A stretch of DNA of 23,630 nucleotides from a virus. Positions 11,964-23,093 of the stretch are shown here, piece by piece; the first letter of the stretch is position 1, and each line of letters opens with the position of its first letter. The position numbers were made by a program, and so were the translations under genes. The stretch is from positions 1-23,630 of the IMG/VR virus record IMGVR_UViG_3300033146_003133; one strand, written 5' to 3'. Below the pieces are notes generated by a model. It was not told the DNA's origin, did no database searches, and saw only the letters and a list, made by a program, of their open reading frames with translations.

Positions 11964-13073
11964 TTAAATTCTTATTTTTCTTAAAAACTCACTACATTTA
12001 CTTGTTCTCTCAAACGGAGTGTTTTTAAATGCTTTTTCTACATACTCCATAAGAAAAACATCCCATTGTGAGATATCTCCATTAAAAGGAGAATCCTCAA
12101 ACATGCTATTTATGTTTATAACTTTAGCTACGTTCCATCTAGAGACATCTCCATTAAAAGGAGTGTCCGAAAACATGAATCTCATGTCTCTAACACTAGA
12201 GACATCCCAGTTAGAAACATCCCCATTAAAACTAGAATTCGCAAACATACAGTCCATTCCTTTCACACCTGAAACATTCCACTTAGAGATGTCTCCATTA
12301 AATCTCGTTGAATAAAACATGTATCTCATAGATTTAACACTAGAGACATCCCAGTTAGAAATATCCCCATTAAAAAGAGAATCAGCAAACATATGGTCCA
12401 TGATTTTAACTTTGGACACATTCCATCTAGAAACGTCTCCGTTAAAGTGTGTAATGGAAAACATGTGATCCATGTATTCCACGTTAGAAACATTCCATTT
12501 AGAAACGTCTCCTTCAAAACGTGAATTATAAAACATGCCCGACATGTCTTCTACTTGTGAGACATCCCAGTTAGATACATCTCCATCAAAAGACGAATCA
12601 GAAAACATATGCTCCATTTCCTCCACTTTGGAAACATTCCATTCAGAAACATCTCCCTTAAAAGGAGAATTATAAAACATATGGTCCATATTTTTAACCT
12701 CAGAAACATCCCACCTAGAAACATTTCCTTCAAATGGAGAATTCGCAAACATATATTTCATGTCTCTGACATTGGAAACATCCCAGTTAGAAACGTCCCC
12801 GTTAAAAAGGGAATCAGAAAACATATACGACATATCTTTAACATTGGATACATCCCAATTAGCGATGTCTCCAGTAAAAGGCGAATTATAAAACATACAC
12901 GACATCGATTCGACGTTGGATACATCCCATTGTGAAATATCTCCATCAAACGAAAAAGGTTCAAATAAATGAGTCATGTCTGTTATTTCTGACACATCTA
13001 AGTCATTTAAATTAGCAAACATACCTCTTTCTTTTATTACAGAGAGCAATTGTTCTTTATTAATAATTTTCAT
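11964..13073 (-). CDS. BspA/DUF285-type 24-residue repeat protein
   Basis: A 369-residue protein built almost wholly of 13 tandem repeats of 24 residues, each near NWDVSxVxDMxxMFxxSxFNGDVS. This is the DUF285 (BspA-like) repeat, a leucine-rich-repeat-like solenoid with a Trp-Asp-Val core, known from surface and adhesion proteins of Mycoplasma, Brachyspira and other bacteria. The first ~35 residues form a capping start and the last ~20 a basic tail. There is no signal peptide, transmembrane helix or anchor, so in this phage it may be intracellular or part of the virion. It sits between the RuvC-like gene and the replication operon. The copies have diverged, unlike the repeats at 5368-5591, so this is an older expansion. 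Function unknown; a binding scaffold is likely. Confidence 0.88.
   Translation of the reverse strand: MKIINKEQLLSVIKERGMFANLNDLDVSEITDMTHLFEPFSFDGDISQWDVSNVESMSCMFYNSPFTGDIANWDVSNVKDMSYMFSDSLFNGDVSNWDVSNVRDMKYMFANSPFEGNVSRWDVSEVKNMDHMFYNSPFKGDVSEWNVSKVEEMEHMFSDSSFDGDVSNWDVSQVEDMSGMFYNSRFEGDVSKWNVSNVEYMDHMFSITHFNGDVSRWNVSKVKIMDHMFADSLFNGDISNWDVSSVKSMRYMFYSTRFNGDISKWNVSGVKGMDCMFANSSFNGDVSNWDVSSVRDMRFMFSDTPFNGDVSRWNVAKVININSMFEDSPFNGDISQWDVFLMEYVEKAFKNTPFERTSKCSEFLRKIRI
12000..12960 (-). repeat. 72-bp tandem repeats encoding the DUF285 solenoid
   Basis: About 13 in-frame units of 72 bp, best seen on the plus strand as recurring ACATCCCAGTTAGA and AAACATATGG-type blocks. They vary at many third positions and at the Phe-Asn-Gly-Asp segment. 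Open frames on the other strand and in the shifted minus frames over this stretch are shadows of the repeat. Confidence 0.85.
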
Positions 13074-13882: not shown

Positions 13883-13939
13883 GAAAAAAACGTAAGTACT
13901 ATAATGGATGCACCGATGGCTAACTATTATAGTACTTAC
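13883..13939 (-). terminator. 14-bp hairpin with T-run upstream of the resolvase gene
   Basis: Bases 13892-13905 pair perfectly with 13926-13939 (GTAAGTACTATAAT and its complement) around a 20-base loop. On the minus strand the stem is followed by G and then seven T (13890 to 13884), the form of an intrinsic terminator. It would end a minus transcript coming from the 14 kb region before the resolvase, or attenuate the operon. Each arm also contains TATAAT, so a promoter element on either strand is an alternative reading. Confidence 0.6.
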
Positions 13940-13966: not shown

Positions 13967-14138
13967 TTTTTTTAATAGCTTTACTGTGTTTGCGCGTATC
14001 TGGGGGTGTTAAACTTTTGAAACTTTATTGTAAATAAGTTTGAAATATTTAATGCCCCAGATACGCGTAAACAACTAGTTTTGTTGTAACATTCTTTTTA
14101 TTTAGCGATAACACTAAACGAACAACCTATTAAAAAAA
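13967..14138 (+). ncRNA. Array element 0: three-stem RNA-like structure with giant P2
   Basis: P1 pairs 13967-13978 with 14127-14138 (12 bp, TTTTTTTAATAG with CTATTAAAAAAA). P2 is an unusually long hairpin, 13988-14072, with an 18-bp base (CGCGTATCTGGGG core) and two further helices above it. P3 is TTTAG/CTAAA at 14101-14118 with the shared loop CGATAACA. The spacer before the closing P1 strand ends AC, and CTTT follows the first P1 strand, as in most other copies. G-T pairs at 13992/14068 and 14008/14053 are pairable only as plus-strand RNA. It is separated from the seven other copies by two small genes. Confidence 0.7.
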
Positions 14139-14209
14139 TATTTTGTAATTAAAACGATTTATTGCTTTTTATATGGCCTAGATTTAAAGTTTAGTCCTAC
14201 AAATTTTAA

Positions 14210-14251
14210 TTTTATTAAACCATACCGGTAAATAGATAGGTTTAAATAAAA
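14210..14251. other. AT-rich 12-bp inverted repeat
   Basis: Bases 14210-14221 pair with 14239-14251 with one bulged A, around a 17-base loop containing ACCGGT. It has no CGATNACA loop and no T-run. It is the only clear structure in the 208 bases between element 0 and the branched hairpin at 14347. Function unknown. Confidence 0.5.
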
Positions 14252-14346
14252 AGTTGTTATAAGATGCTTTAAAACGTTTTTTTTATTTTTTACAAAAGCT
14301 TACCGAGTAATAGTGAAATTGAGTAAGATTACTTATACACGCGTAG

Positions 14347-14424
14347 GATATACTATAATTAAAGCTGGAAACTAGACCCGAAGGGTCGACGTTTTCATTG
14401 TTATAGTCTAGTGTATCTTTTTTT
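14347..14424 (+). ncRNA. Branched hairpin ending in a T7 run, possible small RNA or terminator
   Basis: Nested helices are GATAT/GTATC (14347-14351, 14413-14417), ACTATAA/TTATAGT (14352-14358, 14401-14407), GAAAC/GTTTTC (14368-14372, 14391-14396, one bulge) and an apical GACCC-GAA-GGGTC (14375-14387). Seven T follow from 14418. The outer helix needs a T-G pair that works in plus-strand RNA. The T-run makes it a good plus-strand terminator, but the internal loops are more elaborate than a terminator needs, so it may be the 3' end of a structured small RNA. I see no match to a ribozyme or riboswitch. Confidence 0.55.
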
Positions 14425-14675
14425 CTTTTTCGAAAGGAAAAGTTTGAGGATGATTTTTCTCTTCTTTTCTTTCTTTATATATTTCTTTCTTTCTTTCTTT
14501 ATATTACTTTCTTTCTTTCTTGCTTTAAGCTTTCTTTTTTTCTTCTTTTTTTAAAGGAGAAAGGGAAGGGGATTTTTCTTTTTTTTTAAATGTTCATATG
14601 AACATTTTCTTGCAAACATTTCTTGCAAATTCTTTCATTTTCTTGCAAACATGATGCATAAAGGTGGTTGTTTTC
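14425..14675. repeat. Pyrimidine-rich low-complexity stretch, no gene
   Basis: This stretch is dominated by T and C on the plus strand, with runs of CTTT units around 14475-14523, and two AAAGGAAAAG-type purine patches. TTCTTGCAAACAT-like segments recur three times near 14610-14650. I see no open frame, RNA gene or conserved site in it. A polypurine/polypyrimidine tract could adopt unusual DNA structure or slow polymerases, but that is speculation. Confidence 0.6.
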
Positions 14676-14840
14676 TTATTTTTCTGCTTTTTCTATATTG
14701 TCATTTATTTTTTTTATTTTACAAAATAACCAAATAGCTGCAAATATACAAAATGCAAATATTATCGGTTTTATGTAAATTATAAATAGAACAATAAGAA
14801 TTAGGTTCGCTATGCTGTCTCTTTCTATCTTCGAAAGCAT
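14676..14840 (-). CDS. Small single-pass membrane protein
   Basis: A 54-residue protein with a short charged N-terminus, a long hydrophobic stretch at ~11-43 (one long or two short helices) and a Lys/Glu-rich tail. The start at 14840 is chosen for its strong AAAGGAGG site seven bases upstream; the longer frame to 14975 has no such site and overlaps the neighbouring gene. It follows the Ser-rich gene by 16 bases. Size and topology would suit a host-membrane effector or holin-like accessory, but nothing specific is recognisable. Confidence 0.7.
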   Translation of the reverse strand: MLSKIERDSIANLILIVLFIIYIKPIIFAFCIFAAIWLFCKIKKINDNIEKAEK

Positions 14841-14856
14841 ACTGACCTCCTTTTTT

Positions 14857-15108
14857 TTAGGCAGACTCCTCACTACTAGCTGAGGATTCGGATGAACGAC
14901 TTGAACTACTGCTAACAGGATAATAATCATTTTTATCGTCTTTAAAAGCATTATCTTTGGATATACACCTCTCAATACGGGTTGCTGGTTTAAAACGCAC
15001 TATGCCCCTCTTGTGGCTATTTAAAGCGTTAGTTTTATATGTACCAGTCTGCCCTCTTTCTGTAAAATCCAAATCAATTGTTTTTAATAACTCTCTACTA
15101 CTATTCAT
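14857..15108 (-). CDS. Small protein with serine-rich tail
   Basis: An 83-residue protein. Residues 1-60 are polar and basic (KTIDLDFTERG, then a Lys/Arg segment), and the last ~18 residues are almost only Ser with a few Glu and Ala. The start at 15108 is chosen because GAGGAG precedes it at good spacing; the frame runs back to 15192 without a comparable site. I recognise no family. The tail is surely disordered. With the following membrane protein gene it forms a two-gene unit isolated inside the RNA-element region, likely an early or host-interaction module by position. Confidence 0.65.
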   Translation of the reverse strand: MNSSRELLKTIDLDFTERGQTGTYKTNALNSHKRGIVRFKPATRIERCISKDNAFKDDKNDYYPVSSSSSRSSESSASSEESA

Positions 15109-15230
15109 GTTAACTCCTCTTCCTTGTTCATTTTTTTCGTAAGATATAAATTTAATATATATCTTTTTCTTACTTTTTTCCACTTGTTCCATTTATAACC
15201 ACCGGAAAAATCCCTCTTCCACACAAAAAC

Positions 15231-15381
15231 AGTTAAATAAATCTTTATAAAAGTATAGACATGGACCCTCGTGACGAATACCCAATAAGGTGACCGTCAC
15301 GGTTGTTCTTGTCTTACTTATTATTGAGCTTAGACTTTCTTTTGGTACCCGATCACAGATACCCTGTACATTTATTTAACT
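15231..15381 (+). ncRNA. Array element 1: three-stem RNA-like structure
   Basis: P1 pairs 15231-15242 with 15370-15381 (AGTTAAATAAAT with its complement, 12 bp). P2 is CGTGACG/CGTCACG at 15270-15301. P3 is GGTACC/GATACC at 15344-15363 with loop CGATCACA. Its P3 stem has one C-A mismatch on the plus strand that would be G-U on the minus strand, the one point against the plus orientation. The spacer before the closing P1 strand is CTGTAC. Confidence 0.72.
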
Positions 15382-15388
15382 TATCCTA

Positions 15389-15493
15389 ATAATTTCTTTT
15401 AAAGCTTATTCTGTACTCCTTGTTACTTATCTCCCTTAAATAACACATACAGTAGTCGATAACAACTACCAATCCAACCTTTAAAAAAATTAT
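15389..15493 (+). ncRNA. Array element 2: three-stem RNA-like structure
   Basis: P1 pairs 15389-15404 with 15479-15493 (15 bp with one bulged C). P2 is GTTACTTA/TAAATAAC at 15422-15444 with one mismatch. P3 is GTAGT/ACTAC at 15452-15469 with loop CGATAACA. The P3 stem shares no sequence with the other copies yet pairs fully, which is covariation-like support. The spacer is CAATCCAAC. Confidence 0.72.
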
Positions 15494-15567
15494 AACTTAA
15501 AACCTTACATCGTTAAAATATATTTGAGTTTTTTTTAGTAATTATAAAACATTTAAATTAAATTTAC

Positions 15568-15701
15568 CTTAAATCTTAATATTAGAAATTAACTGATCCT
15601 CCTTCATGTTTTGTAGAAAAATGAAGGGTGATCCGTGAATTTCTTGTGTTTATTATTATTATTTTACTTATAGCCGATTACAGCTATTTAAAACATTTAA
15701 G
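15568..15701 (+). ncRNA. Array element 3: three-stem RNA-like structure
   Basis: P1 pairs 15568-15574 with 15695-15701 (CTTAAAT/ATTTAAG). P2 is a long hairpin 15586-15642 with CCTTCAT/ATGAAGG at its heart, flanked by GATC/GATC and AAATT/AATTT. P3 is ATAGC/GCTAT at 15670-15687 with loop CGATTACA. The spacer TTAAAAC is identical to that of element 4, and the two share P1 and P3 stems, so they look like recent duplicates with different P2 sequences. Confidence 0.72.
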
Positions 15702-15731
15702 ATATTTACAGTTTTATTCCTTACTTTTTTT

Positions 15732-15775
15732 GATTTATTGTTAAACAGTTCTTTATTTACCTTTTACAATAAATC
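15732..15775. other. 9-bp perfect inverted repeat between array elements
   Basis: GATTTATTG at 15732-15740 is fully complementary to CAATAAATC at 15767-15775, with a 26-base loop. It lies in the spacer between elements 3 and 4. It has no CGATNACA loop and no T-run. It may be a decayed element or an unrelated AT hairpin. Confidence 0.45.
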
Positions 15776-15790
15776 GCTCAATCATTCTTG

Positions 15791-15921
15791 CCTTAAATCT
15801 CAATAGTATAAATTAGCTGAGCAGCTTTAATGTAATCATTATAGAGCTGCGCAGAGAATTTATCTTACTTCTGTTGATTTTTTTCAATTATAGCCGATAC
15901 AGCTATTTAAAACATTTAAGG
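15791..15921 (+). ncRNA. Array element 4: three-stem RNA-like structure
   Basis: P1 pairs 15791-15798 with 15914-15921 (CCTTAAAT/ATTTAAGG). P2 is 15808-15863, closed by ATAAATT/AATTTAT with an inner GCAGCTTTA/TAGAGCTGC helix containing one T-G pair. P3 is ATAGC/GCTAT at 15890-15906 with the shortened loop CGATACA, seven bases rather than eight. The missing N shows that the position is variable in base and dispensable in at least one copy. Confidence 0.72.
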
Positions 15922-15940
15922 TGATATAAGATTTACATTC

Positions 15941-16054
15941 TAATTTGAATACTTTTTAAAAGAATCCTGGTGTATACGTGGATTTTTTTATTTTTATTTC
16001 TAGACGTCCCTTTATTTATCCGATAACAGATAAATTTTAAAACTATTCAAATTA
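15941..16054 (+). ncRNA. Array element 5: three-stem RNA-like structure
   Basis: P1 pairs 15941-15950 with 16045-16054 (TAATTTGAAT/ATTCAAATTA, 10 bp). P2 is 15958-15989 with AAAAGAATCC/GGATTTTTTT including one G-T pair that works in plus-strand RNA. P3 is ATTTATC/GATAAAT at 16014-16035 with loop CGATAACA, the longest P3 stem of the set. The spacer is TTTAAAACT. This is one of the cleanest copies. Confidence 0.75.
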
Positions 16055-16081
16055 TTTATATAAAAGAAGAAACCAAAAGCT

Positions 16082-16200
16082 TATAAGATGTGTATGGTTG
16101 TAGGATGGTACACTAAGTGGTCCATCGAAAAACATATACTTCTTACATTATTGCTACTTTACTTTAATAGCCGATTACAGCTAAATAACAAACACTTATA
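16082..16200 (+). ncRNA. Array element 6: three-stem RNA-like structure, weak P1
   Basis: P3 is TAGC/GCTA at 16168-16183 with loop CGATTACA. P2 is 16090-16139, with GATGG/CCATC inside a GTGTAT/ATATAC helix that has a G-T pair. P1 is only six pairs (16082-16087 with 16195-16200), and its closing strand lies within the opening P1 strand of element 7, so the two outer stems cannot form at the same time. Confidence 0.6.
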
Positions 16201-16291
16201 CTTTTCAATAGACGTACCGTGTACGGTGATCTAAATCTATTAGTATTACAAATATTATCCGATAACAGATAACTTACGACTATAAGTGTTT
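16190..16291 (+). ncRNA. Array element 7: three-stem RNA-like structure
   Basis: P1 pairs 16190-16200 with 16281-16291 (AAACACTTATA/TATAAGTGTTT, 11 bp perfect). P2 is 16207-16241 with AATAGA/TCTATT and an inner ACCG-TGTA-CGGT hairpin. P3 is TTATC/GATAA at 16255-16272 with loop CGATAACA. The spacer is CTTACGAC. It is the last copy before the terminase gene and the most compact. Confidence 0.74.
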
Positions 16292-16560: not shown

Positions 16561-18948
16561 ATGAACAAGACCAATATAAAAGAACAGATAACACGCTATG
16601 CAGAAGGAGTAGAAGCACAAAATATACATAGTTTGGCACCTTTACTTAGTTTACTTCAATTTGAAGGAAAACCAGTAGATTTACGCTTTCATTTTCAATT
16701 AGCGCCTATTTACAACTTAGCGGTACCAAAAAGGATAGTTTTGAAGACAGCCCGACAAGTCGGCAAATCTTTTAGTATATGTATGGATGGTGCTCTTCGA
16801 GGCATGGCTGTGCCTAATTTCCATACTCTTTATATACAACCACGTTTTGACCAAATAAAAGGGTTTAGTAACCTTATGATGAGACCTTTTATACATAACA
16901 GTTATGTTAAAGCTCATATTGTAGATAAATCGTGTGAAGACAGTATTTTAATAAGAACTTTTAAGAACGGTTCCAGGTTACACTTCTCTTACTGCTTACT
17001 TGACGCAGACAGAGTAAGGGGACTTTCAGGTATATCTAGAGTAGCCCTGGACGAGAGCCTTTCTAAAGGAACCGTGGTTTTTATACTCAAAAACGTCAAA
17101 AAAAACAAAGTTGAAAAAAAAGTTGGATTTTTTTCAGAACAAGACTTGTATTATATAAACATAGGTGGCGTAGTTAGTGAGATATCGGAGAGCAGTAGCC
17201 AAACGTACCTAGTATGCACTAAACAGATACAAGACATTAAAAAAGGTGATAAGGTTATTAGTTTTGATAGAAACAATAAACTTGTCCCTAGCCTTGTTGC
17301 AAAGGATGCCAGTGCACACGGAGTAAGGGAATGCTTTACTTTAACAACAGTGACAGGTAAACAAGTAACATGCACAATAGACCACCCTTTAATGACAAAT
17401 AAAGGAGCTATGCGTTTAAGCGATATAGTTACATATATGTATAGTTTAGACACTGTTATAGAGAACCAAACAGAAGAGACTATCCACAAAATAGTTAGAG
17501 TGTTAAAAAAGGAAAACAGAGATAAATTAGAAGATAAAATAGCTAAACTTTTATTACAAGAAAAACGTAGACCTTTAGAACTTGTTGTTAATAACAACGA
17601 ATTAGACTATATAGAAAAAATTAGATATACAGGCGCTAAAGAGACCTTTGATATTGAGGTTGTAGGAACACATACATACTTATTAGCTAATGGTATGTAT
17701 AGCCTTAATTGCCAAGATATAGATAGCAGCTTTATACCTGTAATAGGTGAGACTATGAGCGCTAGTCGTAAATACGGTATATATCAATATACAGGTACAC
17801 CTAAAACAACAGATAACACTTTAAGTGAAATTTTCAATGATAGTAGTATGGCTGAATGGGTTATACCGTGCAAAAATTGTTTAAAGCTTAATGTACCTAG
17901 TATAGACCACGATATTTTAAATATGATAGGTTTAAAGACACTTATTTGCGCTAATAAGAAATGCGGTAAACCTTTAGATGCTCGGGATGGTTGGTATGAG
18001 CACGGTAACCCTCACTTAAGGAACACTTTTGCTGGATATCATGTTCCCCAAATTATACACCCTCTACATTATACTAATGAGAACAAGTGGGCTGATTTAT
18101 TATATAAACAAAGAACATATACTAAAGCTAAATTCTTAAATGAGGTTTTAGGTGAGCCTTGTGACGAAGCAACTAAACTTATAACCGTAGGAGATATACA
18201 GCAGTCGCAAAACCAATATAAGAACACAATAGAAGATGCACTTAAAAACAGGGATTATTATGAAACAGTTGTACTCGGTGTGGACTGGGGAGGGGGAGGA
18301 GCTCTAGAGAATAGTTTTACAGCTTTAGCCATTGTTGGAGTATGTCCAGGATCAGACAAGCTAGATACTTTATATTGTGAACGATTCCCTATGACAATGA
18401 CACCTATAGATGAAATAAGAACTATTTTAACATATGCTACAACCTTTAGGGTTAGTTACATAGGCCATGATTACGGTGGCGCTGGTAACCTTAGAGAAGT
18501 TTTATTATTACAAGCTGGAGTAGACCCTGAACTTATTGTGCCATACACTTATGTTAACGCTGTAAGACAAGAGGTTGTTAAATATAATAAACCAGGAACA
18601 GGCCAAAGAGCTAGTTATAGTATAGATAAACCACGAAGTTTAGCTATCGTGGTTAATATGATTAAAGCGGGTAAAATAACATTACCGCAGTTTGATAGAA
18701 GTTACGATATAACTAAAGATTTATTAGCTTTACAAGAAGAAGTGAGAGAGATGCCTAGAGCCAGTGATGTTTATTTAATTGTTAAAGCGCCTAAAAAAAC
18801 AGATGACTTTGCACATGCTTTAAATTATGCTTGTTCAACTATATGGCACATTAAAGATTGCTACCCATCCTTAATGGATAGCCACAAATATACCATAGAC
18901 GCGGATACCCAAAATATGGTTAACCCAGCGAATGTTAATTGGGATTAA
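16561..18948 (+). CDS. Terminase large subunit with in-frame mini-intein
   Basis: A 795-residue precursor; removing the intein leaves 577 residues, a normal terminase size. The ATPase has Walker A KTARQVGKS (62-70) and Walker B VALDE, interrupted after E165 and resuming CQDIDSS at 384, then TGTPKTT as the coupling motif. A zinc site CKNC...CANKKC (437, 440, 463, 468) follows, as in some GpA-like terminases. The RNase H-type nuclease shows GVDWG (D575), GHDYG (D637) and DDFAHAL (D748/D749), the acidic residues that bind metal and cut concatemers. The protein powers DNA entry into the capsid. An AGGAGGG site lies five bases before the ATG. It opens the plus-strand operon. The small subunit was not recognised nearby; one of the following unknown genes could be it. 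Confidence 0.92.
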   Translation: MNKTNIKEQITRYAEGVEAQNIHSLAPLLSLLQFEGKPVDLRFHFQLAPIYNLAVPKRIVLKTARQVGKSFSICMDGALRGMAVPNFHTLYIQPRFDQIKGFSNLMMRPFIHNSYVKAHIVDKSCEDSILIRTFKNGSRLHFSYCLLDADRVRGLSGISRVALDESLSKGTVVFILKNVKKNKVEKKVGFFSEQDLYYINIGGVVSEISESSSQTYLVCTKQIQDIKKGDKVISFDRNNKLVPSLVAKDASAHGVRECFTLTTVTGKQVTCTIDHPLMTNKGAMRLSDIVTYMYSLDTVIENQTEETIHKIVRVLKKENRDKLEDKIAKLLLQEKRRPLELVVNNNELDYIEKIRYTGAKETFDIEVVGTHTYLLANGMYSLNCQDIDSSFIPVIGETMSASRKYGIYQYTGTPKTTDNTLSEIFNDSSMAEWVIPCKNCLKLNVPSIDHDILNMIGLKTLICANKKCGKPLDARDGWYEHGNPHLRNTFAGYHVPQIIHPLHYTNENKWADLLYKQRTYTKAKFLNEVLGEPCDEATKLITVGDIQQSQNQYKNTIEDALKNRDYYETVVLGVDWGGGGALENSFTALAIVGVCPGSDKLDTLYCERFPMTMTPIDEIRTILTYATTFRVSYIGHDYGGAGNLREVLLLQAGVDPELIVPYTYVNAVRQEVVKYNKPGTGQRASYSIDKPRSLAIVVNMIKAGKITLPQFDRSYDITKDLLALQEEVREMPRASDVYLIVKAPKKTDDFAHALNYACSTIWHIKDCYPSLMDSHKYTIDADTQNMVNPANVNWD
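17056..17709 (+). mobile_element. Mini-intein (218 aa) inserted in the terminase Walker B motif
   Basis: The insert begins at S166 with SLSKGTVV, the block A pattern (first residue Ser or Cys, Gly-Thr at 5-6). Block N2 is IKKGDKVISFD (226-236). Block B has T272-x-x-H275 in CTIDHPLMT. Block F is FDIEVVGTHTYLLANG (D364, H371). It ends SLN383 before C384, giving the catalytic Asn and a Cys nucleophile at +1. The exteins rejoin as VALDE-CQDI, a good terminase Walker B. Two features are odd: the residue before the final Asn is Leu instead of the usual His, and ~63 residues separate block A from the GDKV motif, about 40 more than usual. No LAGLIDADG or HNH endonuclease motif is visible between blocks B and F, so it is probably not mobile by homing now. 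Splicing activity is inferred. Confidence 0.88.
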
Positions 18949-19114: not shown

Positions 19115-19651
19115 ATGGCAGAAGAAGCAAAGGTAAAAGAGGTATCGGAAGAAGAAGCTAGAAGGGAACTTCTAAAGAGACGAACAGATGAACACAAAGG
19201 CAAATTTGTGAAAGCTGAGCAGCATGTAAATAAAGCTTATGATAAGGAAACATCTGCTGGTATTTACATCCACGGCACATCTACAGAAAACGAAAAACAA
19301 TTATTTAATCGTATTAAATCTGTACGAGCTGAAGGTGGACACGTTATTGTTGATGTTAAAAAAGGATTTGACCCTTCTTATAAAGGTAGACCATTAACAA
19401 CTCAAGTGTGGACGGTAAAAGAAGCCGCTGCTAGAGCTAAAGGTTTAAATGAGTTATCAAAAGACTTATCTACAAATGAAGCGTTAATAGCTATGGAAAT
19501 AGTAACGGAGGTTATTGCTAAATGTAAAGAGGCACAACAGCAATTATTTGACCCTAATATAAAATCTAAAATAAAAAAAGAAACAGTAGACCCATCTACT
19601 GTAAGCTTAAAGAAGCCTGGGTTTACTGAAGAAAGAACACAAAAGGTGTAA
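19115..19651 (+). CDS. Unrecognised charged protein after the terminase
   Basis: A 178-residue soluble protein with an ATG preceded by TGGAGG at eight bases. The N-terminal ~45 residues are Glu/Lys-rich and helical. The middle (46-105) has alternating strands with HVIVDVKKGFDPSYKG, suggesting a small folded domain. The C-terminal half is helical, ending in a Lys-rich tail. It starts 166 bases after the terminase and is followed one base later by the next gene. I cannot name a family. Position next to the large terminase raises a small-subunit or capsid-associated role, but no helix-turn-helix is evident. Confidence 0.78.
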   Translation: MAEEAKVKEVSEEEARRELLKRRTDEHKGKFVKAEQHVNKAYDKETSAGIYIHGTSTENEKQLFNRIKSVRAEGGHVIVDVKKGFDPSYKGRPLTTQVWTVKEAAARAKGLNELSKDLSTNEALIAMEIVTEVIAKCKEAQQQLFDPNIKSKIKKETVDPSTVSLKKPGFTEERTQKV

Positions 19652-19652
19652 T

Positions 19653-20222
19653 ATGGATAAAAAAATACTATATCTTATAGATAATGTAAAACAGCAAGCG
19701 CGTGATTATTCTATAGTGTGGAAAAAAGAACCAGACGCTATTAAACTTAGAGTGGATGATACAGTTTTATTAGAGAACACAGAAGGCGCTATGGATCTAT
19801 TTAAATCAGAGTTAGGTAAACTTAATATTACTATTAAAAACATAACATCTAATAATACTATTGTGTATAAAGAACAACAGACACATGAAGCAACTGTAAT
19901 TAGACGCATTGTGGATAAAGTATGTAATGTTTCAGTTAAAGATGATTCTGTTATATTAGAGAAACATTTTAAAGAAATAAATAGAGAACTTAAACGACGG
20001 TTAGGAATAGATGTAAAAATTTCAGAGATTATAAATAAAAAGGAATGTACATTTGACGAACTACGTTTATTGATAAAAAACGCAAACAGTAAGTTAGAAT
20101 TAACTGAATCACCACTGACCAGATTATGCGTCAATATGACTAAGGCGATTGATTCAATGCAAGATACAATAAAAGAAACGAAAGACATACTTAAAAACCT
20201 AAACAAACAGAAAGAAGATTAA
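19653..20222 (+). CDS. Unrecognised helical protein
   Basis: A 189-residue protein, rich in Lys, Asp, Ile and Asn, with long predicted helices and a Lys/Glu-rich C-terminal end that looks coiled-coil. It begins one base after the previous stop (TAATATGG junction) and the next start follows its stop by one base, so the three genes are translated together. It has two cysteines but no motif. Unrecognised; a virion-associated or scaffold protein would fit the composition and place. Confidence 0.75.
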   Translation: MDKKILYLIDNVKQQARDYSIVWKKEPDAIKLRVDDTVLLENTEGAMDLFKSELGKLNITIKNITSNNTIVYKEQQTHEATVIRRIVDKVCNVSVKDDSVILEKHFKEINRELKRRLGIDVKISEIINKKECTFDELRLLIKNANSKLELTESPLTRLCVNMTKAIDSMQDTIKETKDILKNLNKQKED

Positions 20223-20223
20223 A

Positions 20224-20799
20224 ATGAAAGAGATAACAAAAAAGAAACCAGCTGTGAAAAAGATCGTAGTTAAAAAAGAAATAACTAAAGAAACTAAAGA
20301 AATTAAAGAACCAACTGTTTTAGATAGTTTGGTTAAAACAATAAATATTTGCTTAAAAGATATAGATAAAGATATTGAGCAAATAGAAAAGATAGGTAAG
20401 GATCTTGAAAAAGTAGTTAAAAGAAAAAATGAGTACACAGAAGTATTTGCTTCATCTTTATCTAAAATAACAGAAGAGGAAGATACTTTAAATGATAAAG
20501 TGTTTAAACATTCTGATAATATGTATAAGCAATCATTCGACCTAAGGAGACTTCTTATCACAGCTGAGAATCAACCTTTAGATAATATAACTAAAAAACA
20601 ACGTGAAACTTTAGACAAAGTGCATAACTTATTAGAAGACCTGGACGTGATAGAAAAGATACGGTGTCAAGTAGAGGAAGTTAATGAAGAAAAGTGCTGT
20701 AAAAAGTTTAAAGCTAAAAAAACAAAACATTCAAAAAGCAAGAAGAACAGAGACATTGATGATAAACATAAAGAGATGTATGACTTTTTTAAACAATAA
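20224..20799 (+). CDS. Unrecognised lysine-rich coiled-coil protein
   Basis: A 191-residue, strongly basic and helical protein. Residues 1-30 are nearly all Lys, Glu, Thr and Val. A long helical region (~35-150) shows heptad-like spacing of Leu and Ile. The C-terminus has CCKKFKAKKTKHSKSKK, a basic patch likely to bind nucleic acid or acidic partners. It is the third gene of the tightly packed set and is followed at once by the pseudoknot RNA region. Function unknown. Confidence 0.76.
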   Translation: MKEITKKKPAVKKIVVKKEITKETKEIKEPTVLDSLVKTINICLKDIDKDIEQIEKIGKDLEKVVKRKNEYTEVFASSLSKITEEEDTLNDKVFKHSDNMYKQSFDLRRLLITAENQPLDNITKKQRETLDKVHNLLEDLDVIEKIRCQVEEVNEEKCCKKFKAKKTKHSKSKKNRDIDDKHKEMYDFFKQ

Positions 20800-20804
20800 A
20801 AAAC

Positions 20805-20885
20805 CGATTCTGGCATAATAAAACAAAGTTTGGAATGTGCTTATATGGAAAGACCGGCAGAATCGTTAATATTTCGAGTCTTTCC
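20805..20885 (+). ncRNA. Predicted H-type pseudoknot RNA
   Basis: Three helices can be drawn. P1 is CGATTCTG (20805-20812) with CAGAATCG (20858-20865), 8 bp. P2 is a short hairpin 20813-20817 with 20836-20840 that abuts P1, so the two could stack. P3 is GGAAAGAC (20847-20854) with GTCTTTCC (20878-20885), 8 bp. P3 starts inside the P1 loop and closes outside it, so P1 and P3 form a pseudoknot. It sits between two genes of the same operon and is followed by a terminator. The topology differs from the HDV ribozyme, whose P3 hairpin follows the opening P2 strand. I see no known riboswitch. No frame of any length overlaps it. Confidence 0.6.
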
Positions 20886-20906
20886 TACTCCTTTTATGAA
20901 CTAGGC

Positions 20907-20945
20907 GCCTCAGCGGTGAGATAACATTTCACTGAGGCTTTTTTT
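20907..20945 (+). terminator. Rho-independent terminator
   Basis: GCCTCA (20907-20912) pairs with TGAGGC (20933-20938), with a further GTGA/TCAC helix above a small bulge, and then seven T (20939-20945). This is a strong GC hairpin in AT-rich surroundings. It closes the unit that holds the three charged proteins and the pseudoknot. The next gene starts 24 bases later, so it either has its own promoter or depends on readthrough. Confidence 0.85.
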
Positions 20946-20968
20946 AATAACAAAAGAAAGAAGAAAAA

Positions 20969-21331
20969 ATGAATATGTTTGAATTATATTGTATCCTGAA
21001 ATTAGATGAAGTTAAATCGCTTTTAGAGATTACAGGAGCTGTTAGTTGTCTTTTTGTTACAGTAATATTAGGAATGTTTTTATTCGACTATCTAGATGCA
21101 GGTAAAAAAATACCTTTATGGTATAAAGTTTGTTCTATGACATTAATACCTATGGTAATATTTTTGATATTAGCTGCTGTTTTAATACCCTCAACAAAAC
21201 AGATGGCAACTATTATAATTGCACCTAAAATAATTAACAATGAGGTTCTAAAAGACGATTTAAAAGAGTTGTACGGATTGGCAAAAGAGGAATTAAAAGA
21301 TTTAATAAAAAAGAAGGATGTGTCAAAATGA
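20969..21331 (+). CDS. Small two-helix membrane protein, copy 1
   Basis: A 120-residue protein with two membrane helices, ~20-42 and ~52-74, joined by a short loop containing LDAGKKIPLWYK. A Pro-Ser-Thr-Lys-Gln-Met segment follows helix 2, and a charged helical tail ends the protein. The layout, with PS-x-K-x-M after the second helix, resembles small membrane proteins common in tailed phages, whose role is not established. It is a tandem paralogue of the next gene. Its last bases overlap that gene's ATG by four bases. A host-envelope or lysis-related job is possible but unproven. Confidence 0.8.
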   Translation: MNMFELYCILKLDEVKSLLEITGAVSCLFVTVILGMFLFDYLDAGKKIPLWYKVCSMTLIPMVIFLILAAVLIPSTKQMATIIIAPKIINNEVLKDDLKELYGLAKEELKDLIKKKDVSK

Positions 21332-21687
21332 ATATGTTTGAATTGTATTGTGTCTTGAAATTAGATGAAATTAAATTGCTTTTAGAAATCACAGGCGTTG
21401 TTATATTTATTTTTGTTATAATGGTATTAGGGGGGTTTTTATTCAACTATATAGATGCAGGTGAGAAGATACCTTTATGGCATAAAGTTTGTTCTGTAGT
21501 ATTAATACCAACGACAATATTTTTGATATTGACTACTGTTTTATTACCGTCTACAAAGCAGATGGCCGTAATTATAATTGCACCTAAAATAATTAATAAT
21601 GAAGTTTTAAATAATGATTTAAAAGACTTATATAAGTTAGCAAAAGATGGATTAAAAGATTTAATAAAGCACGATATAAATAAGTAG
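21328..21687 (+). CDS. Small two-helix membrane protein, copy 2
   Basis: A 119-residue paralogue of the preceding protein, colinear over the whole length with high identity, including the N-terminal MNMFELYC and the APKIINNEVL segment after helix 2. Substitutions sit mostly within the membrane helices. The ATG overlaps the previous TGA (ATGA), and a GAAGGA site lies within the end of copy 1, so the two are translated together. The pair may form a hetero-oligomer, or the second copy may adapt to a different partner. Both points are inference. Confidence 0.8.
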   Translation: MNMFELYCVLKLDEIKLLLEITGVVIFIFVIMVLGGFLFNYIDAGEKIPLWHKVCSVVLIPTTIFLILTTVLLPSTKQMAVIIIAPKIINNEVLNNDLKDLYKLAKDGLKDLIKHDINK

Positions 21688-21715: not shown

Positions 21716-22405
21716 ATGCTAAAGTTTAGAAAAGCACAAAAAGAACAAAAAGAACAAGACGATAAGATTGTTCAGGAAAATGGTTTAGACTTACTGTTTT
21801 TTAATAAACAAACTGAAGCCTTATGTAAATTAGCTGTGCAAGAAAATGGTTTAGCTTTACAATATGTTAAAGACCAAACTAAAGAGATATGTACATTAGC
21901 TGTTAAACAGGATGGGCAATCATTATGCTACGTCAAAAAACAAACACCGGAACTGTGTGCTTTAGCTGTTAAACAGGATGGCTTAGCTTTAAGATTCATT
22001 AAGAAGCAAACAAAAAAGCTTTGTAGATTAGCTGTTCAACAAGAGGGCTTAGCTTTAAAATATGTTAATAAACAAACAGAGGAGTTATGTAAATTAGCTG
22101 TTCAGCAATATGGCTTATCTTTAAAATATGTTAATAAACAAACAGACGAGTTATGTAAATTAGCTATTAAACAAGACGGTTTATCTTTAGAGTATGTTAG
22201 AGACCAAACAAAAGAATTATGTAAGTTAGCCATTCAACAAGATAGTTATGCTTTAGAGTACGTTAAAAAACAGACTAACGCTTTATGTAAATTAGCTGTG
22301 CAAGAAAATGGTTTAGCTTTACAGTTTGTTAAAAAACAAACAGAAGACATTTGTGAGTTAGCTTATATACAAAATAATAAGTCGTTACAATATGTTAAAA
22401 TATAA
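21716..22405 (+). CDS. DUF4116-type repeat protein
   Basis: A 229-residue protein made of about ten 23-residue repeats of the form LCKLAVQQDGLALxYVKKQTxE, matching the DUF4116 repeat known from some bacteria, protists and giant viruses. Each unit is likely a helix pair, so the whole is a helical solenoid. The first ~15 residues are Lys/Glu-rich. It has no signal peptide or membrane segment. A Cys recurs at the same place in nearly every unit. The function of the repeat is unknown; a binding scaffold is likely. The ribosome site is weak (AAGAAG). It is the second solenoid repeat protein in this window. Confidence 0.85.
   Translation: MLKFRKAQKEQKEQDDKIVQENGLDLLFFNKQTEALCKLAVQENGLALQYVKDQTKEICTLAVKQDGQSLCYVKKQTPELCALAVKQDGLALRFIKKQTKKLCRLAVQQEGLALKYVNKQTEELCKLAVQQYGLSLKYVNKQTDELCKLAIKQDGLSLEYVRDQTKELCKLAIQQDSYALEYVKKQTNALCKLAVQENGLALQFVKKQTEDICELAYIQNNKSLQYVKI
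21765..22400 (+). repeat. 69-bp tandem repeats encoding the DUF4116 units
   Basis: In-frame units recur every 69 bp, seen as TTATGTAAATTAGCTGT-type blocks followed by GGTTTAGCTTTA. Adjacent copies near 22060 and 22130 are almost identical, showing recent duplication, while the outer copies are more diverged. Confidence 0.85.
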
Positions 22406-22700: not shown

Positions 22701-23093
22701 TTAGCCTTCGTTACGAGGACTAGCTTGTTGCATTACTTTATCTAAAACATCTTTACCTGAGGATAAATCAGCCGACGCGTCGGCCATTCTTTTAGCTTGG
22801 ATATCTTCCGCTTTTTTAGCTTCTTGATCTATTTTAGATTCCAAATCTTGCGTTTTATTATTATGTTGTAATTCAGCCAATCGTTGTTGTAGTGATTGTA
22901 TTTCTTCTTCTCTTGTTTGATCTATCTGTTCTTGCGCTTGTTGTGTGTCGTCTCCGTTATCAGGAGCGGCTGCGGCCATTCCTGCAATTCTATTATATCT
23001 TGATTGACCTGTTCCCGGCACAGGTAACCCTTGTAATACGTTTGCGTCTAAAGCCTCTTTTAAAAGTGAGCCTAAATTATTGTTTTTGTTCAT
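22701..23093 (-). CDS. Unrecognised Gln/Glu-rich coiled-coil protein
   Basis: A 130-residue protein. The N-terminal 30 residues contain LKEALDANVLQGLPVPGTGQSR, then a short Ala-rich stretch. Residues ~50-105 are a Gln/Glu/Lys-rich heptad region, probably a coiled coil. It has no cysteine or membrane segment. Its start overlaps the end of the upstream gene by 17 bases, with AAAGG as ribosome site inside that gene. Composition would suit a scaffold or small structural protein; this is only a suggestion. Confidence 0.75.
   Translation of the reverse strand: MNKNNNLGSLLKEALDANVLQGLPVPGTGQSRYNRIAGMAAAAPDNGDDTQQAQEQIDQTREEEIQSLQQRLAELQHNNKTQDLESKIDQEAKKAEDIQAKRMADASADLSSGKDVLDKVMQQASPRNEG

Follow-up and report, generated by a model that had tools for sequence, protein, structure and literature searches.

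The window that we analyzed is a virus record of 23,630 bases, a contig of an uncultured phage, in which replication and recombination genes (for helicases, SbcC-like and SbcD-like proteins, and RuvC) occupy the minus strand. The plus-strand genes extend from the terminase gene at 16561 through 22650, and the large terminase, which contains an intein, heads this operon. At about the same place, the terminase of the relative L169 carries a far longer insertion, and that of the relative L092 carries none. One of the few sizeable gaps separating the plus-strand genes lies downstream of a gene for a lysine-rich protein for which the searches made yielded no homologue (Table 1). The sequence-only reading of this DNA had placed a structured RNA in this gap, inside the packaging operon; this placement is fair, since the plus-strand genes enclose the element, with the flanking gene ending at 20799 and the next one starting at 20969. 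Two genes elsewhere in the window encode repeat proteins, both of unknown function: a DUF285 protein at 11964-13073 (DNA period of 72 nt) and a DUF4116 protein at 21716-22405 (period of 66 nt).

Table 1. Coordinates of genes, helices and other features in the window.
Feature	Position	Strand	Remarks
Large terminase with intein	16561-18948	+	Compared with relatives L169 and L092
Upstream gene (lysine-rich protein of 191 aa without a family)	20224-20799	+	TAA stop at 20797-20799
Open frame of 34 codons in phase with upstream gene	20800-20904	+	TAG at 20902-20904; possible readthrough extension
Helix P1, 5' arm CGATTCTG	20805-20812	+	Pairs with 20858-20865
Weak hairpin in loop 1	20813-20840	+	GCATA 20813-20817/TGTGC 20836-20840, one G-U, plus AAAC/GTTT
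Helix P2, 5' arm GGAAAGAC	20847-20854	+	Pairs with 20878-20885
Helix P1, 3' arm CAGAATCG	20858-20865	+	Pairs with 20805-20812
Loop 3, 12 nt	20866-20877	+	Length would suffice for crossing the 8-bp P1 (presumed geometry)
Helix P2, 3' arm GTCTTTCC	20878-20885	+	Pairs with 20847-20854
Intrinsic terminator	20907-20945	+	GCCTCAG 20907-20913/CTGAGGC 20932-20938, T7 20939-20945
Downstream gene (protein of 120 aa with two hydrophobic stretches)	20969-21331	+	Weak phrog_3878 match
Tandem paralogue of downstream gene	21328-21687	+	73% aa identity to the 20969-21331 protein
Outer stem of CGATNACA array (example)	13967-13978/14127-14138	+	
Outer stem of CGATNACA array (example)	15231-15242/15370-15381	+	
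Outer stem of CGATNACA array (example)	15941-15951/16044-16054	+	
Outer stem of CGATNACA array (example)	16190-16200/16281-16291	+	

The gap contains two interleaved helices, P1 and P2, each consisting of 8 Watson-Crick base pairs and both contained within 81 nt (20805-20885). We re-found both helices exactly, with the coordinates and sequence that had been reported for them. The short hairpin that had been described between the helices is present as well, in loop 1, but it is weak. With loops of 34, 3 and 12 nt (L1 to L3), all of a length that can be spanned, the arrangement is that of an H-type pseudoknot. Its stacking-model score is -22.4 kcal/mol versus -17.5 kcal/mol for the nested minimum free energy fold, the score being our own simplification (Turner stacks and a fixed pseudoknot penalty of 9.6) and not the output of a full pseudoknot folding program. 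Under this simple model it is the best-scoring pseudoknot of the contig, with other real contig windows coming close (-20.9 vs. -22.4). Nested folding of the stretch is ordinary (z -1.2), and a nested fold lacking P1 is almost as stable as the pseudoknot. From the complementarity we infer that the stretch can possibly tie into an H-type pseudoknot and that this fold may have been under selection.

The pairing had been judged unlikely to arise by chance, and this judgment holds only in part. The interleaved 8/8-bp pair is the sole one within 81 nt in the window, its score was not reached once when the 91 nt were shuffled 1000 times, and its stem energy was matched in only 0.04% of cases (217 of 522,789) when the intergenic stretch was shuffled. 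On the other hand, shuffled windows contain a mean of 0.65 such pairs, with at least one in 30% of them, and an equal or better pseudoknot occurs in 34 of 10,629 G+C-matched windows of related phage contigs (0.3%, about 1 in 310). In that comparison the two matches of the window itself are a single place scored on both strands (minus-strand offset 2738 corresponds to 20746-20892 on the plus strand), because Watson-Crick helices are strand-symmetric. At this rate, about one such place is expected per 23.6 kb, to which the non-coding part would contribute perhaps 0.1-0.2. The chance statistics are suggestive, not compelling.

Downstream of the helices, a G+C-rich hairpin directly followed by a T run has the make-up of an intrinsic terminator (-14.8 kcal/mol, z -3.4). 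Judged from its sequence, this looks like a real stop signal for transcription; the sequence-only reading of a structured 3' end that carries a strong terminator is supported. Terminator-like sites number 7 in the region, versus 3.1 in shuffles. The same reading had also considered a riboswitch-like attenuator controlling the membrane-protein genes, and a structured RNA followed by a terminator ahead of the would-be regulated genes is indeed what such a device would present. Attenuating riboswitches possess an aptamer or antiterminator that is mutually exclusive with the terminator. Here, the pseudoknot (ending at 20885) and the terminator (starting at 20907) have no bases in common and are separated by 21 nt. 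When the terminator pairs were forbidden, the folding energy changed from -34.1 to -17.5 kcal/mol, the arms found no alternative pairing, and no antiterminator or competing fold appeared. In a search with the Rfam covariance models, no family matched the element at the gathering score; there was no credible match up to an E value of 10, and no aptamer nearby. Since there is neither overlap nor a competing fold, a switch between pseudoknot and terminator is not indicated, and we consider attenuation highly unlikely.

The position of P1 only 5 nt behind a stop codon brings a different function into view, in which the pseudoknot would stimulate readthrough of the TAA and thereby yield a 34-residue extension ending at the TAG at 20902. 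UAA is usually a strong stop, which speaks against this proposal. The frame ends 2 nt ahead of the terminator stem; its codon score lies at the 45th percentile of real genes, while that of the -1 frame is poor. An equally high score is nevertheless attained by 14% of stop-free non-coding frames, so the coding signal is not significant, and no homologue of the 34-residue extension was found. The placement of an H-type pseudoknot a short spacer away from a stop codon, with the frame staying open past the stop, resembles readthrough of the Mo-MuLV type (PMC3835772), from which the present case differs by its UAA in place of UAG, its long loop 1, its origin from a DNA phage, and an extended product that is putative. 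We regard readthrough as very improbable here. By analogy with this retrovirus-like recoding layout, a DNA phage might make a fixed fraction of C-terminally extended protein by means of an H-type pseudoknot 5 nt past a UAA, a conjecture to which we give very little credence. Frameshifting into the -1 frame at the heptamer UUUAAAC (20788-20794) was rejected: the heptamer belongs to the frame of a short overlapping ORF (20684-20818), not to that of the gene at 20224-20799, a -1 slip there runs straight into TAA, and the -1 frame scores poorly.

In searches for relatives, nothing that matches the element turned up among Rfam families, phages, plasmids or viral contigs. Terminase searches assembled a clade that comprises a few genome contigs besides about 150 viral loci, some of these loci coming from a contig taken twice. 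The closest relative (L092; 52% terminase identity) is a 9.2-kb contig binned with Blastopirellula; some other members of the clade were binned with Planctomycetota, a hint at their hosts, although the binning may be wrong. A homologue of the gene at 19115 is present in L092 only, and homologues of the gene at 23077 are present in many loci of the clade. The genes at 19653, 20224, 20969 and 21328 are absent from all of these loci (those at 20224 and 20969 were also sought in the whole records), as is the RNA element, which therefore lies in an accessory stretch. The missing homologues do not count against function. Searches of viral contigs with 16-nt and helix patterns led to unrelated loci only, and a 23-nt match in the locus L003 was discarded, as the DNA around it appears to be coding and the helices are missing there. 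The layout of pseudoknot plus terminator was found at 10 other places in 80 loci of the terminase clade, none of them an evident equivalent.

Other structured RNAs are predicted elsewhere in the window. About eight plus-strand hairpins with the loop CGATNACA (CGATACA in one of them) are located at 13967-14138 and 15231-16291. Their stems differ, are unrelated in sequence and comprise 4-7 bp, with a mismatch in the one at 15350. The window has seven CGATNACA sites, every one of them on the plus strand and inside the array region; 1.3 were expected, and none of 100 shuffles reached seven. In most cases an outer stem of 8-12 bp, likewise unrelated in sequence, closes around both the hairpin and a longer arm. 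As far as its predicted folding goes, the array, which lies shortly before the terminase gene, looks like a tandem series of three-way-junction RNAs. It has no match in Rfam, and related loci plus those matched by pattern, 2.4 Mb altogether, contain no such array. A connection with the pseudoknot was rejected, as the motif is absent from 20800-20946. In addition, a perfect 14-bp hairpin (GTAAGTACTATAAT/ATTATAGTACTTAC, 13892-13939; folding z -4.3 in its window) is present upstream of the RuvC-like gene, and a structured region (14330-14425, plus strand; z -3.3) that holds a GACCCGAAGGGTC hairpin and has a T-rich end lies between minus-strand genes and may be a plus-strand RNA.

Among known elements, an HDV-like ribozyme was ruled out by helix order. 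In such ribozymes the order is P1 5' arm, P2 5' arm, P3 hairpin, P1 3' arm, P4 and P2 3' arm; the hairpin found here lies between the 5' arms of P1 and P2. The best-known pseudoknot of a phage mRNA is that of T4 gene 32 (PMC3014915). In gene 32 operators of the T4 type, the 5' leader contains an H-type pseudoknot that precedes the start codon by 67 nt, and an A+U-rich unstructured tract leads from the pseudoknot to the ribosome binding site (PMC3014915). Our element shares with them the H-type pseudoknot in a non-coding gap of a phage mRNA; unlike them, it is separated from the next gene by a terminator, so its position is not that of an operator. With Rho-independent terminators at operon ends it has in common the G+C-rich hairpin and T run, and it differs from a plain terminator of this kind by the extra interleaved helices upstream.

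The explanation that we tentatively favor, with somewhat less than even confidence, is an operon-ending 3' UTR that combines a strong terminator with a passive, possible H-type pseudoknot. A transcript starting upstream of the terminase gene would have its 3' end here: the terminator would halt most transcription ahead of the two small membrane-protein genes, which would be expressed through transcriptional readthrough or from a promoter of their own. The 3' UTR between the stop codon and the terminator would fold into the pseudoknot. Since the stop codon is only 5 nt away from P1, a ribosome that terminates there would sit on the P1 5' arm, and folding would be possible only once the last one has left. 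Its role would be passive; we infer that a compact 3' structure may slow exonucleases and keep upstream RNA off the terminator. In favor of this explanation, pseudoknot and terminator coexist without competition; against it, real DNA contains pseudoknots of the same quality at a rate of about one in each stretch as long as the contig.

That frequency, the ordinary nested folding and the failure to find a relative are also what would be expected if only the terminator were functional and the helices were complementary and interleaved by chance within an intergenic stretch of 147 nt. Set against this are the rarity of a match among the shuffles of the stretch itself and the location of the site in the non-coding minority of the contig, in a gap with the stop codon on one side and the terminator on the other; we consider chance complementarity a serious contender, though somewhat doubtful. 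A stable small RNA ending at the terminator, either processed from the 3' UTR or started at a promoter-like site, appears improbable to us. Terminator and structure are present for such an RNA, and the site at 20790-20819 (TAAACA-18-CATAAT) matches at 9 of 12 positions and has a TG before its second hexamer. But promoter-like sites are not commoner in the region than in shuffles (26 vs. 34.5), and this one overlaps P1 and loop 1; if used, it would therefore give rise to an RNA devoid of the P1 5' arm. Overall, the locus probably marks the ordinary end of an operon, and the additional fold in it is unproven.

The present evidence is mainly a lesson in how frequently such chance pairs occur in real DNA. 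The CGATNACA array at 13967-16291 is more striking than the pseudoknot and merits more attention. If the pseudoknot is real, it would add one more element to those of phage mRNAs, with a role in the protection of the 3' end or in recoding.
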